From: Anaerofustis stercorihominis DSM 17244 | GTDB taxonomy: Bacteria > Bacillota > Clostridia > Eubacteriales > Anaerofustaceae | Length of the DNA stretch: 64,000 bases | Reading direction: 5' to 3' | NCBI RefSeq assembly: GCF_000154825.1 | Contig: NZ_DS560019.1 | Location: 124,001 to 188,000 of the forward strand | Shown: piece by piece, positions 19,963 through 39,080 of the stretch | Layout: every line of letters starts with the position of its first letter | Numbering within the stretch: the first letter of the stretch is position 1 | The notes under the pieces: model-generated | Seen by the model: only the letters and a program-made list of their open reading frames with translations | Told to the model about the DNA's origin: nothing | Database searches by the model: none | Translations under genes and position numbers: made by a program

Positions 19963-20104
19963 TAAAAAAATTTCTCATAGGTTCTCCCATGAGATTATCT
20001 TAATACTCATCATTCGGAAAAATCCCGTAGGTATTAGCACCGTACCTTTGCCGGTTGCCGGGTTTCATAGTGCCTATTCACTCCACCGCTCTAAATAAGG
20101 TCTA
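19963..20104 (-). promoter_or_regulatory. SAM-I (S-box) riboswitch with terminator
   Basis: Reading the minus strand from about 20104: AGAGCGGTGGAG, then CACTATGAAACCCGGCAACC, then a hairpin and AAAGGTACGGTGCTAATACC, the conserved S-box core order. It ends in a terminator stem TCTCATGGG/CCTATGAGA followed by seven Ts (19963-19997). SAM binding is expected to favour this terminator and stop metK transcription. Confidence 0.93.
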
Positions 20105-35310: not shown

Positions 35311-37443
35311 TTAGATATTCCTCTTCTTGATTTTATATCCCACGGTACTTACCGCTCCCAAAGACACAAAAGACAATAGGGCATATAAAACCATATTCAT
35401 TTCATCAGAAGTCTGAGGATTATTTACCGCTGTTTTATCACTTCCTGTCTTTGTCACGGTACTTCCGTTTGATGTTGAGTCGCCATTGTTATTATTATTC
35501 TTATCTTCTTCTTTTACGATCTTTGGGATAACGACATCTGAACCTTCTTTTTTAGTACCGCAGACGCTGCACTCTGTATGCTTACTTCCTTCTTCTGTAT
35601 ATGTAGCTTCCTTGTCTACCACTTCTTTATCAAAAGTATGAGGTAAAACTCCTATTTTCTCATCTGAATTTTCTTTTTTAGTGTTACAAACACTGCACTC
35701 TGAATGCTTACTTCCCTCTTCAGTACATGTTGCAGGTGTGTCTATTATTTCTGCATAAGTATGAGCAAGCATTGGTATATCTACATCGGAACCGTCTTCT
35801 TTATCCCCGCATACACTGCATTCTCTGTGTTTGCTTCCCTTGACCGTACATGTAGCTTCTTTATCTGTAATATCTTTATAATCATGAGTTCTGCTTACGG
35901 GAAGTACAACACTGACTTGTTCGCTTACTTCATTCCCGCATTCGCATGTTCCAGCTTGATATGTAACACTTCCTGGGGTCAAACATGTAGGTTCAACTCT
36001 CGTCGACGCCACTTCATCCGATCCGTGGCATATGCCGTCGGTTTTAAATACCCAAGAACCATCATTATTATCTTCATAGTATTGATATAATGCACTCTTT
36101 GAAGCCGCGGAGCCTTTATGAGCTATTATGGTAAATCCGTTTATCTTTGAACCGTTACCTTTTTCACCTAAATCACTATCAACAGATGTAATGTTAGGAC
36201 TCGTCATCCTGATAGTCTTTAAATTATCACAATCACCGGATGATATATAATTTATTGAAGTTAAAGCACTTCCTTCTTCGGTATCAATCATTTCCAAAGC
36301 AGAACAACCTGAAAAAGCACTTGAACCCAAAGTGGTAACGTTTTTGGGAATGGTTATACTTTTGATCCCGGAGTCAGAAAATGTCTTAAACCCTATTGAA
36401 GTCAATGCACTGCCCTTTTCAAAAGTAATGGAAGTTAAATCGGAACAATCTGAAAAAGCGCTGTCACCTATAGACTCTACAGATTTTGGTATAGTTATTT
36501 CGGTTATTTTAGACCCACTGAAAGCATAATTTGCAATAGTTTTAATCTTTGAGCCTTCTTCAAAAGCTATACTTGTAATACTACTGGATTTAAATCCAGC
36601 TAAAACTTCCAAGCTTTTAGGTAATACTATTGAAGTTAAGTTAGGACATTCGTCAAAAACAGCACCACTACTTCCCAAAGACTTTAAAGCACTGCCTTCT
36701 TCAAATTCAAAGGAAGATAAAGACGAACAACCAGAAAAAGTATTGTAGTCTATTTTTTCTACTGACTTTGGTATCGTTATACTCTTTATTTTAGATAAAT
36801 AGCAAAAAGCACCTGAACCTATTTCTTTTAAATGACTCCCCTCTTCAAAGGTCACTGTTTCTACATTTTTAAAAGCTTCCCCAAAAGATGCAAATCCAAC
36901 AAATTCAATATTTTTAGGTATTGTCAGATATTTTATTGAAGCAAAAGGAGCCTCATCGAAAAAAGCACCTGTTTCAATAGACGTTACTGTATATTTTTCA
37001 TCACTTCCCGCAACGTTTACTTCCCTTGGTACGGTAAAGCTTTCTTCTGTAGCACTAAAAGTACCGACACCCGTAAGCGCCGCTTCCTTTGTATCCTCAT
37101 CATAACTGAATTTAAACCCTGTTGTTTCATCAAATTGACCCGTAACCACTGCCTTAGATGTCTTTGAAGACGACTTAACCGTTTTAGAAGGCTCATTTGA
37201 AGAAGTATTTTCTTCCGCTTTCACATTCTCTGATGTTTTATCTTCATTAACTTTATCTGTTACAGCTTCATCGTTAGTCTTAACTTCTTCGCTGCTATTT
37301 ACGTCAGTTCCCTGTTGTTCTTCGCTTACTACGGCATTGTCCTTCGTGTTTTCATTCTTTAATTCTTCGGCAAACACAGGTGTCATGCTTCCTAACACCA
37401 TAAACCCGCTCAGCATTACTGCCAGTAATCTCTTACTCTTCAT
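35311..37443 (-). CDS. BspA-like leucine-rich-repeat surface protein with sorting signal
   Basis: 710 residues from the ATG at 37443, chosen because GGGGAG lies 6 bp upstream. A signal peptide (LLAVMLSGFMVLGSMTPVFA) is followed by an acidic Ser/Thr linker. About ten BspA/LRR_5 units come next (about 150-430), of the type SITIPKSVEKIDYNTFSGCS. Four Cys-rich modules of the ATCTEEGSKHSECSVC type follow (about 480-640). The C-terminus NPQTSDEMN, a membrane helix and KKRN make a sortase-type signal, so the protein is probably wall-anchored. BspA-like proteins bind host or matrix ligands; the ligand here is unknown. Confidence 0.85.
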   Translation of the reverse strand: MKSKRLLAVMLSGFMVLGSMTPVFAEELKNENTKDNAVVSEEQQGTDVNSSEEVKTNDEAVTDKVNEDKTSENVKAEENTSSNEPSKTVKSSSKTSKAVVTGQFDETTGFKFSYDEDTKEAALTGVGTFSATEESFTVPREVNVAGSDEKYTVTSIETGAFFDEAPFASIKYLTIPKNIEFVGFASFGEAFKNVETVTFEEGSHLKEIGSGAFCYLSKIKSITIPKSVEKIDYNTFSGCSSLSSFEFEEGSALKSLGSSGAVFDECPNLTSIVLPKSLEVLAGFKSSSITSIAFEEGSKIKTIANYAFSGSKITEITIPKSVESIGDSAFSDCSDLTSITFEKGSALTSIGFKTFSDSGIKSITIPKNVTTLGSSAFSGCSALEMIDTEEGSALTSINYISSGDCDNLKTIRMTSPNITSVDSDLGEKGNGSKINGFTIIAHKGSAASKSALYQYYEDNNDGSWVFKTDGICHGSDEVASTRVEPTCLTPGSVTYQAGTCECGNEVSEQVSVVLPVSRTHDYKDITDKEATCTVKGSKHRECSVCGDKEDGSDVDIPMLAHTYAEIIDTPATCTEEGSKHSECSVCNTKKENSDEKIGVLPHTFDKEVVDKEATYTEEGSKHTECSVCGTKKEGSDVVIPKIVKEEDKNNNNNGDSTSNGSTVTKTGSDKTAVNNPQTSDEMNMVLYALLSFVSLGAVSTVGYKIKKRNI

Positions 37444-37484
37444 TTCTAACTCCCCTTTATTTTTCGACAATAATATCAAAAATC

Positions 37485-37632: not shown

Positions 37633-37783
37633 ACCTTTTTATAGAAATTTTTGGTATTTTTTACTGTTTTTGAAACTTTTATAGGGTATTTAATCGTTAA
37701 GATAAAAAAGTGAGACGTGAGAGTTTTGTTTTGATAAAAATAAGATTTTTAGAATATAGGGTTGATAGATAGTGAATTAAGTT

Positions 37784-37822
37784 AGGGGCGCGGAATCTCA
37801 CGCAGTGAGGCGTAGTGCCCCG
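37784..37822 (-). repeat. 39-bp hairpin repeat, copy 4 (reverse orientation, altered inner stem)
   Basis: On the minus strand it has the same 13-nt left and right arms as copy 2, but the inner hairpin is CTCAC-TGC-GTGAG instead of CTGCC-TTC-GGCAG. Two stem pairs have changed on both sides, so pairing is preserved. On the plus strand it is followed directly by ATTTTTTTTG and could act as a terminator. Confidence 0.9.
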
Positions 37823-37851
37823 ATTTTTTTTGTATAAAAATGAGAGATATA

Positions 37852-37860
37852 TGTTATAAT
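37852..37860 (+). promoter_or_regulatory. extended -10 promoter of the rsgA transcript
   Basis: TGTTATAAT (37852-37860) is an extended -10. The only -35 candidate, TTGTAT (37830-37835), is 19 bp away. The transcript would start near 37867 with a leader of about 135 nt. Confidence 0.55.
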
Positions 37861-37894
37861 ATAAAAACATTTGAAAGAAAGGAGATACTTTTTT

Positions 37895-37954
37895 ATGTTT
37901 AAAACAGTAATCAAAACGGATATTGTGTTATACACGGAGGTATGTGTAAAATAA
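37895..37954 (+). CDS. candidate 19-residue leader peptide of rsgA
   Basis: ATG to TAA encoding MFKTVIKTDIVLYTEVCVK. It follows AAAGGAG (37878-37884) at 10 bp. The last codons (GAG GTA TGT GTA) form the 5' arm of the hairpin at 37936-37973. The peptide has no known homologue that I recognise. The support is the ribosome-binding site and the fit with the hairpin, not sequence similarity. Confidence 0.4.
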   Translation: MFKTVIKTDIVLYTEVCVK

Positions 37955-37973
37955 CATAATACATGATACCTCC
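37936..37973 (+). promoter_or_regulatory. leader hairpin able to sequester the rsgA ribosome-binding site
   Basis: GGAGGTATGTGTA (37936-37948) pairs with TACATGATACCTCC (37960-37973), 13 pairs with one bulged G. The 3' arm TACCTCC (37967-37973) can alternatively pair over 7 bp with GGAGGTA at 37990-37996, the rsgA Shine-Dalgarno. The two foldings exclude each other. There is no T-run, so it is not a terminator. Confidence 0.6.
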
Positions 37974-38003
37974 ATTGGAACAATAATAAGGAGGTAATAA
38001 AAA

Positions 38004-39080
38004 ATGAATAATAGTTTAACAAAATACGGTGCTGACGAAAGGTTTTTAACGTTAGCAAAAGAATATAAAGATTTAAAACTTGCAAGAGTGATTTCTCAGT
38101 ATAAAGGGATTTATAAGATAATCATGGAAGAGGGCGAATGTCTGGCAAAGGTATCGGGAAAATTTATGAATGAGGCATACCATGCATCGGACTATCCCGC
38201 AGTCGGCGACTATGTCATGACTGACGGCTTCAGAAAAAAAGGTGAAACTTCCGTTATACACCGCGTGCTTGACAGAAAAAGCGTATTTAAAAGAAGTGCC
38301 GCAGGTTCTAAAAAAGAAATGCAGATAGTTGCTTCAAACGTCGATATTATATTTATTTGCATGGCTTTAAACAACGACTATAATATAAACAGGCTGGAAA
38401 GATACATGACCCTTTCTTGGGACAGCGGAGCAAAGCCGGTAATAATCCTAACGAAATCCGACTTGTCCGAAAACATAGATAATATCCTGAATGAGGTAAC
38501 TTCCGTCACTTTCACAGACGATATAATCCTTACAACAAACAAAGACGAGAGTTCTTATGAAAAAATATATGAATATTTAAAGCCGGGTATTACAGGCGCA
38601 TTCATAGGTTCTTCGGGCGTGGGGAAATCGACCATAATAAATCATCTGCTGGGCAGAGAGATAATAAAGACTTCCGGGCTTAGAAATGATGATAAGGGAA
38701 GACACACCACCACAACCAGAGATTTGATATTACTGAAGGACGGAGGCATAGTGATAGATACCCCGGGAATGAGAGAACTGGGAACGGGCTTTGCCGAAAC
38801 ATCGAGAGGATTTGAAGATATCGAAGAACTCATTTCAAAATGTAAGTTCTCAGACTGTACTCACACGGGAGAACCCGGATGTAAAGTAAGAGAAGCGATT
38901 GAAAAGGGAACTTTGGATTTAAGAAGATATGAGAACTACGAAAAAATAAAAAGAGAAAATAAATACGCAGGGCTTAATTCCAAGGAAATAGAAAAAGAAA
39001 AATTAAATCAGATGTTTAAAAGCGTCGGAGGAATGAAGAAAGCAAGAAAATATTTAAAAGACAAAGATAAAAGAAAATAA
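38004..39080 (+). CDS. rsgA: small-subunit-dependent ribosome GTPase RsgA
   Basis: Circularly permuted GTPase that acts late in 30S maturation. 358 residues, longer than the usual 290-300 owing to a Lys-rich C-terminal tail. An N-terminal OB-fold precedes a G domain in permuted order: TKSD, then GSSGVGKSTI, then DTPGMRELG. The zinc-binding motif is CKFSDCTHTGEPGC. AGGAGG lies 9 bp before the ATG. The gene is alone on its transcript behind an unusual leader. Confidence 0.95.
   Translation: MNNSLTKYGADERFLTLAKEYKDLKLARVISQYKGIYKIIMEEGECLAKVSGKFMNEAYHASDYPAVGDYVMTDGFRKKGETSVIHRVLDRKSVFKRSAAGSKKEMQIVASNVDIIFICMALNNDYNINRLERYMTLSWDSGAKPVIILTKSDLSENIDNILNEVTSVTFTDDIILTTNKDESSYEKIYEYLKPGITGAFIGSSGVGKSTIINHLLGREIIKTSGLRNDDKGRHTTTTRDLILLKDGGIVIDTPGMRELGTGFAETSRGFEDIEELISKCKFSDCTHTGEPGCKVREAIEKGTLDLRRYENYEKIKRENKYAGLNSKEIEKEKLNQMFKSVGGMKKARKYLKDKDKRK

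Follow-up and report, generated by a model that had tools for sequence, protein, structure and literature searches.

The 64,000-nucleotide stretch of the Anaerofustis stercorihominis DSM 17244 genome that we analyzed (hereafter the window) contains, at 38004-39080 on the forward strand, a gene for an RsgA protein of 358 residues (TIGR00157, 154.6 bits against a cut-off of 100; PF03193 was also matched), a circularly permuted GTPase with a zinc motif. Its leader is adjoined by a reverse-strand gene (35311-37479) for a large surface protein with CxCG repeats and leucine-rich-repeat-like repeats, the latter presumably BspA-like as judged by eye. At 37780-37832 there is a strong palindrome (GGGGCGC..CTCAC GCA GTGAG..GTGCCCC followed by a T-run, -21.5 kcal/mol) that is one of a family of dispersed intergenic repeats (about 39 genomic matches), and a 121-nt copy of this repeat at G000:C5:1199134 is 99% identical. 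The only Rfam match in the window is a SAM riboswitch (RF00162, 67.6 bits) at 20004-20101 on the reverse strand; at the gathering score, neither the rsgA leader nor eight related loci matched any Rfam family.

The genome encodes two RsgA proteins. The housekeeping rsgA (296 aa, G000:C2:44329) lies behind the PASTA-kinase gene prkC, its usual place, as judged from the frames just upstream, and the window copy, about 32% identical to it at the protein level, is an accessory paralogue that is absent from both other genomes of the genus searched. The distribution of such accessory genes is patchy, with matches in 53 of 291 class genomes at E<=1e-60 and in 52 of 398 phylum genomes at E<=1e-80. All 44 full-length accessory proteins have kept the RsgA GTPase pattern intact (the P-loop GxSGxGKS, [NT]KxD and DTPG) together with the Cys/His zinc motif, although at this level of divergence the function of the window protein may differ from that of housekeeping RsgA, which binds the 30S subunit and acts in late 30S assembly.

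The features of the leader all lie on the forward strand. A perfect TATAAT with an upstream TG forms a predicted extended -10 promoter (TGT-TATAAT, 37852-37860) by consensus match, with no good -35, and a weak alternative candidate lies at 37871-37899. Transcription likely starts near 37867, upstream of all leader parts, so that the whole leader would be present in the transcript. A Shine-Dalgarno (SD) sequence, AGGAG (37880-37884), precedes a leader peptide frame of 19 codons and a TAA (MFKTVIKTDIVLYTEVCVK, 37895-37954) whose product begins MFKTVIKTD, then IV, with a proposed stall motif at Asp9-Ile10-Val11 (37919-37927) that was identified from motif conservation and a scan of ribosome positions. 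Four arms follow in order: arm 1 (37921 to about 37935/37936), arm 2 (GGAGGTATGTGTA, 37936-37948), which overlaps the end of the leader frame, the anti-SD arm 3 (TACATGATACCTCC, 37960-37973), and arm 4, which is the rsgA SD itself (GGAGGTA, 37990-37996). Arm 3 can pair with either neighbor, with arm 2 in a hairpin of 13 pairs (GGAGGTATGTGTA with TACAT-g-ATACCTCC) or, through TACCTCC (37967-37973), with the complementary arm 4. An initial annotation of this DNA had described the leader SD, the 19-codon frame, the 13-pair hairpin starting in the end of that frame and the anti-SD arm, and its coordinates agree with ours base by base. Its proposal of competing hairpins is supported as well, except that it overlooked a third helix, in which arm 1 pairs with arm 2 (37921-37936 with 37943-37961).

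The third helix changes how the leader is expected to work. In both the minimum free energy (MFE) and the centroid structure, the free window RNA folds as hairpin 1:2 (16 pairs) plus the anti-SD hairpin 3:4, and the 37936-37973 hairpin of the initial annotation is absent; the leader is also more stable than dinucleotide shuffles of itself (z -3.6; 0/200). When the downstream edge of a ribosome was placed 16 nt from the P-site codon and moved along the frame, the predicted probability that the rsgA SD is unpaired rose from 0.01 in naked RNA to 0.47 and 0.51 when the P site held codon 8 and codon 9 (Asp), respectively, and was 0.00 from codon 10 onward. A ribosome with Asp9 in its P site leaves the RNA free from 37935 on, and the MFE structure is then hairpin 2:3 only, with the SD open; with 37938 as the first free base it is 3:4, with the SD closed. 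The ON state of the window leader is thus predicted to be only about 50% open. The same scan of 52 leaders gave a mean unpaired probability of 0.58 at the acidic codon and 0.05 one codon on. As would be expected of an erm-type leader, the target SD is sequestered in ribosome-free RNA by free-energy computation, although more weakly in many relatives, where naked leaders come out half open in the prediction (mean SD unpaired 0.41) and the off state would need ribosome passage or folding kinetics. Also as in an erm-type leader, a ribosome over the upstream arm is predicted to release the target SD by letting an alternative hairpin form, for which the covariation of all three helices described below argues together with the free-energy computation. 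On this modeling, hairpins 1:2, 2:3 and 3:4 make up a predicted four-arm, ermC-like translational attenuator of normal sign. Control by leader translation, as first proposed, is thereby supported. So is the rule given there for a ribosome on the last leader codons, namely that it leaves the 3′ arm available for masking the rsgA SD: with P sites beginning two codons beyond the acidic codon and continuing almost to the end of the frame, the SD had a mean unpaired probability of about 0.01. This is, however, one of two OFF states. The opposite sign to erm that had been suggested is not supported, because the naked leader is already predicted to be off and it is a ribosome halted at Asp9 that is predicted to open the SD.

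Is this architecture conserved? Among 150 distinct regions upstream of accessory rsgA genes, 52 contain the series GGAGG, CCTCC, GGAGG and start codon, versus 7 of 7500 shuffles that preserve the SD, and the attenuator leader precedes 0/21 canonical rsgA genes of the same genomes. With relaxed arms, 57 accessory-rsgA leaders have a leader frame (peptides of 12-23 aa), arm 2 and arm 3, and at these 57 loci the putative frame is kept together with an SD of its own upstream of the target; they are spread over Clostridia, Bacilli (Fontibacillus) and Fusobacteriota (a Cetobacterium plasmid, L180). Among 38 diverse leaders, cognate arms pair better than arms swapped between species for 1:2, 2:3 and 3:4 (z -6.6 to -6.8), no swap in 5000 permutations reached the observed stability, and the advantage persists in the flanks without the GGAGG/CCTCC core, whereas letter-shuffled control pieces gave z of only -1.0 to -1.9. 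Hairpin 1:2, the helix added here, has z -6.7 versus -1.3 in shuffled controls, and the flanks of arm 4 covary as well (z -6.6). Within the 2:3 core, 15 cells of the pair counts have both sides changed versus 6.3 when shuffled, and covariation is 0.130 versus 0.068 (0/500), these pairing and covariation tests controlling for relatedness among the leaders only in part. Conserved pairing in related genomes, which had been named as a check of the original proposal, was found for all three helices and beyond what composition explains.

Not every accessory rsgA has this leader. The closest relative by protein (L009, 56%) is without the arms, and the leaders of L127 (a family member), L158 and L184 keep an EIV peptide with the GGAGG/CCTCC arms absent. 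Genes that lack it frequently have a leader of another kind. At seven other loci (L068, L093, L017, L097, L079, L085 and L154), the switch is replaced by leaders resembling the tet(M) transcription attenuator, with the form GGGCATAG..CTATGCCC TTTTT or TTTTTATGCCC. These other leaders and the EIV-only leaders support a part for accessory RsgA in a translation-stress response. In plasmid and phage searches, accessory rsgA genes also turned up on plasmids, in Cetobacterium (L180) and Peptoclostridium (L181), both with the attenuator; on the Lysinibacillus fusiformis plasmid pMGMM7 (L182) the gene lies directly upstream of the fosfomycin resistance gene FosM and has no attenuator. A link to resistance plasmids is not strong, as the rsgA plasmids examined were all non-mobilizable by PLSDB typing.

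The leader peptides share a motif. Anchored 17 nt before GGAGG, the residue is D or E in 41 of 51 leaders, the next is I, S or L in 50 and the third is V or A in 48. The codons used vary (GAT, GAG or GAA; ATT or ATA; AGT or TCG; GTA, GTG, GTC or GCA), and since they include synonymous codons and both AGY and TCN serine codons, it is the peptide itself that is conserved. Counted from the first base of the acidic codon, GGAGG begins exactly 17 nt downstream in most relatives and likewise in the window (Asp9 to arm 2), such that the motif sits right on the boundary between the on and off positions of the scan, where an erm-type leader would be expected to have its conserved motif. From its conservation and position, we infer that [DE][ISL][VA] stalls ribosomes. 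We also considered the chloramphenicol-type rule of A, S or T at the penultimate residue, which fails across the leaders, with one of these residues preceding D/E in only 20/51. A precedent for an acidic residue in this role is ErmBL, in which stalling with the macrolide erythromycin requires Asp10 in the P site (PMC4935803).

The switch is shared with other genes. A covariance model built from the rsgA leaders only and used to search 398 phylum and 391 class genomes gave 31 matches in the class set at E<=0.001: 13 before accessory rsgA genes, 7 before genes for RNHCP-domain proteins (PF12647), 10 before GNAT acetyltransferase genes (PF13527/PF00583) and one spurious. The phylum set added four GNAT and two RNHCP genes. 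Two matches, L212 and L245, are false positives, and at L204 (G719) the leader stands before a truncated rsgA remnant. RNHCP and rsgA genes can also be neighbors: in G018 the leader is followed by an RNHCP gene and then directly by rsgA (L235, L248), and accessory rsgA lies directly behind RNHCP at L064 and L122-L126 too. Most of the GNAT frames (e.g., MKKNNTLEIVR, MKKNNTLDIVA, MTKYNTREIVG) terminate one residue after [DE]IV; GGGAGG follows the stop codon, and 17-18 nt still separate the acidic codon from GGAGG. As arm 2 there lies past the stop, motif and arm have been kept separately. The scan behaves similarly in these leaders, with SD unpaired probabilities at 0, +1 and +2 codons from the acidic codon of 0.80, 0.57 and 0.02 for GNAT and 0.63, 0.17 and 0.01 for RNHCP. 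The GNAT family found behind [DE]IV attenuators in many Clostridia (L205, L209, L210, L214, L225, L229-L231, L233, L236, L237, L239, L241 and L244) has the motif RE[AS]FWNVYRPGC.EHYV and no NCBIfam equivalog. The window genome itself has no further copy of the leader besides the rsgA one and no RNHCP gene. That the gene is an accessory paralogue, and that the same switch precedes RNHCP and GNAT genes, weakens the ribosome-assembly feedback loop suggested initially; a response to translation stress or drugs fits better than autoregulation by RsgA.

We conclude, with a probability of roughly 80%, that the leader is an ermC-type translational attenuator that allows the accessory RsgA to be made only when ribosomes stall. 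Arms 1 and 2 would pair with each other in free RNA, so that arm 3 is available to mask the rsgA SD, and a translating ribosome past codon 9 would cover arm 2 with the same outcome. A ribosome halted with Asp9 in the P site would instead cover arm 1 and end one base before GGAGG, whereupon arm 2 would capture arm 3 and the rsgA SD would be freed. The stall would probably come from the nascent [DE]-[IS]-[VA] acting with an inhibitor that targets the peptidyl transferase centre or the tunnel, or with another translation stress; the inducer is probably a ribosome-targeting drug. Once made, the accessory RsgA would act on small subunits to rescue, recycle or protect them, with protection or recycling the likeliest conjecture given RsgA biology; the RNHCP-domain and GNAT genes elsewhere under the same switch would form a shared stress regulon with it. 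We see about even chances for a broader proposal, namely that [DE]-[IS]-[VA] near codon 8 is a new arrest motif driving an RsgA/RNHCP/GNAT attenuator regulon in Bacillota and Fusobacteriota, that the three jointly provide an inducible defense against a ribosome-targeting natural product, and that the RsgA paralogue is a ribosome-protection or rescue factor.

What else could account for these observations? In the model of the initial annotation there is no specific stall: translation of the leader covers arm 2 and keeps the gene off, and lost initiation or slow translation lets 2:3 form and turns it on, as a feedback on translation state. It would explain why ribosomes anywhere beyond the acidic codon mask the SD, and since the free RNA of about half of the relatives is predicted to be open, loss of leader translation alone would induce there. 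However, the free RNA of the window is closed (0.01), and a peptide motif that is placed at the switch codon, in different codons and before three gene families, would need explaining, so that we consider this model unlikely.

The other explanations appear far less probable. Codons for Asp or Glu, Ile and Val at the control position would suit an attenuator of the ilv- or trp-leader kind responding to starvation for one of these amino acids, an idea that we regard as highly improbable because D/E, I/S/L and V/A interchange with unrelated codons and without codon runs, and the target genes are not biosynthetic. We hold to be just as improbable that the leader hairpins act through transcription attenuation, mRNA decay or Rho rather than on the rsgA SD: three accessory rsgA genes (L068, L093, L017) do have tet(M)-like leaders with a hairpin and T-run, but no terminator-like element lies within any of the 57 leaders of the GGAGG/CCTCC type, and it is with the SD itself that arm 3 has conserved pairing. 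Chance complementarity, with CCTCC happening to fall between two SD-like sites, might be suspected since GGAGG is common in the leaders of AT-rich Bacillota; its likelihood is practically nil, as it is refuted by the shuffle counts (52/150 vs 7/7500), the 0/21 canonical rsgA genes, the covariation and the restriction of covariance-model matches to a few gene families.

Translational attenuation is itself a known kind of control, and drug-inducible ribosome-GTPase paralogues are known as well (HflXr; Streptomyces RsgA). Our literature search, which covered papers outside subscription, returned none on rsgA with a leader peptide and attenuation, nor on the RNHCP domain, and the leader class, the [DE][IS][VA] motif and the joint use by rsgA, RNHCP and GNAT genes were not found in that literature or in Rfam. 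The locus would place an RsgA paralogue under a hitherto unrecognized inducible control of the drug type, one switch tying in two uncharacterized families, and a shared purpose of rsgA, RNHCP and GNAT becomes testable through that switch. If the inducer is an antibiotic, the three become candidates for a role in resistance or ribosome rescue such as HflXr turned out to have, and [DE][IS][VA] would offer a new arrest sequence with which to study how peptide-bond formation is inhibited in a context-specific way.

Among known systems, the chloramphenicol leaders of cat-86 and cmlA stall ribosomes directly after a short peptide with an acidic end (MVKTD), which the KTD of the window leader resembles. 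The cat-86 leader is a two-arm hairpin, whereas there are four arms here and A, S or T is often missing from the position ahead of D/E. The ermC, ermA and ermB leaders likewise encode a short SD-led peptide (about 19 aa) and have four arms that exclude one another in pairing, and their target SD is masked in free RNA and freed, as predicted here, by a ribosome parked at codon 8-10. They differ in their target, a methyltransferase rather than a ribosome GTPase, RNHCP or GNAT gene, in their motifs (IFVI, IAVV, RLR or VDK rather than [DE][IS][VA]), and in that arm 2 here carries a copy of the target SD. Outside the erm group, the WblC/WhiB7 regulon of Actinobacteria is likewise a drug-inducible set with an RsgA paralogue, GNAT enzymes and rescue factors, and a Streptomyces RsgA paralogue is tetracycline- and WblC-dependent (SCO6149, named beside SCO5211; PMC7157823), although that regulon is run by a transcription factor, without a shared leader switch at each target. 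In Listeria, hflXr (rli80) is also an accessory paralogue of a ribosome-associated GTPase, induced by ribosome-targeting drugs and preceded by a short leader ORF whose RNA can take up alternative structures (PMC6310831). There the control is transcription attenuation with an RLR leader, and HflX splits 70S ribosomes whereas RsgA acts on the 30S subunit.
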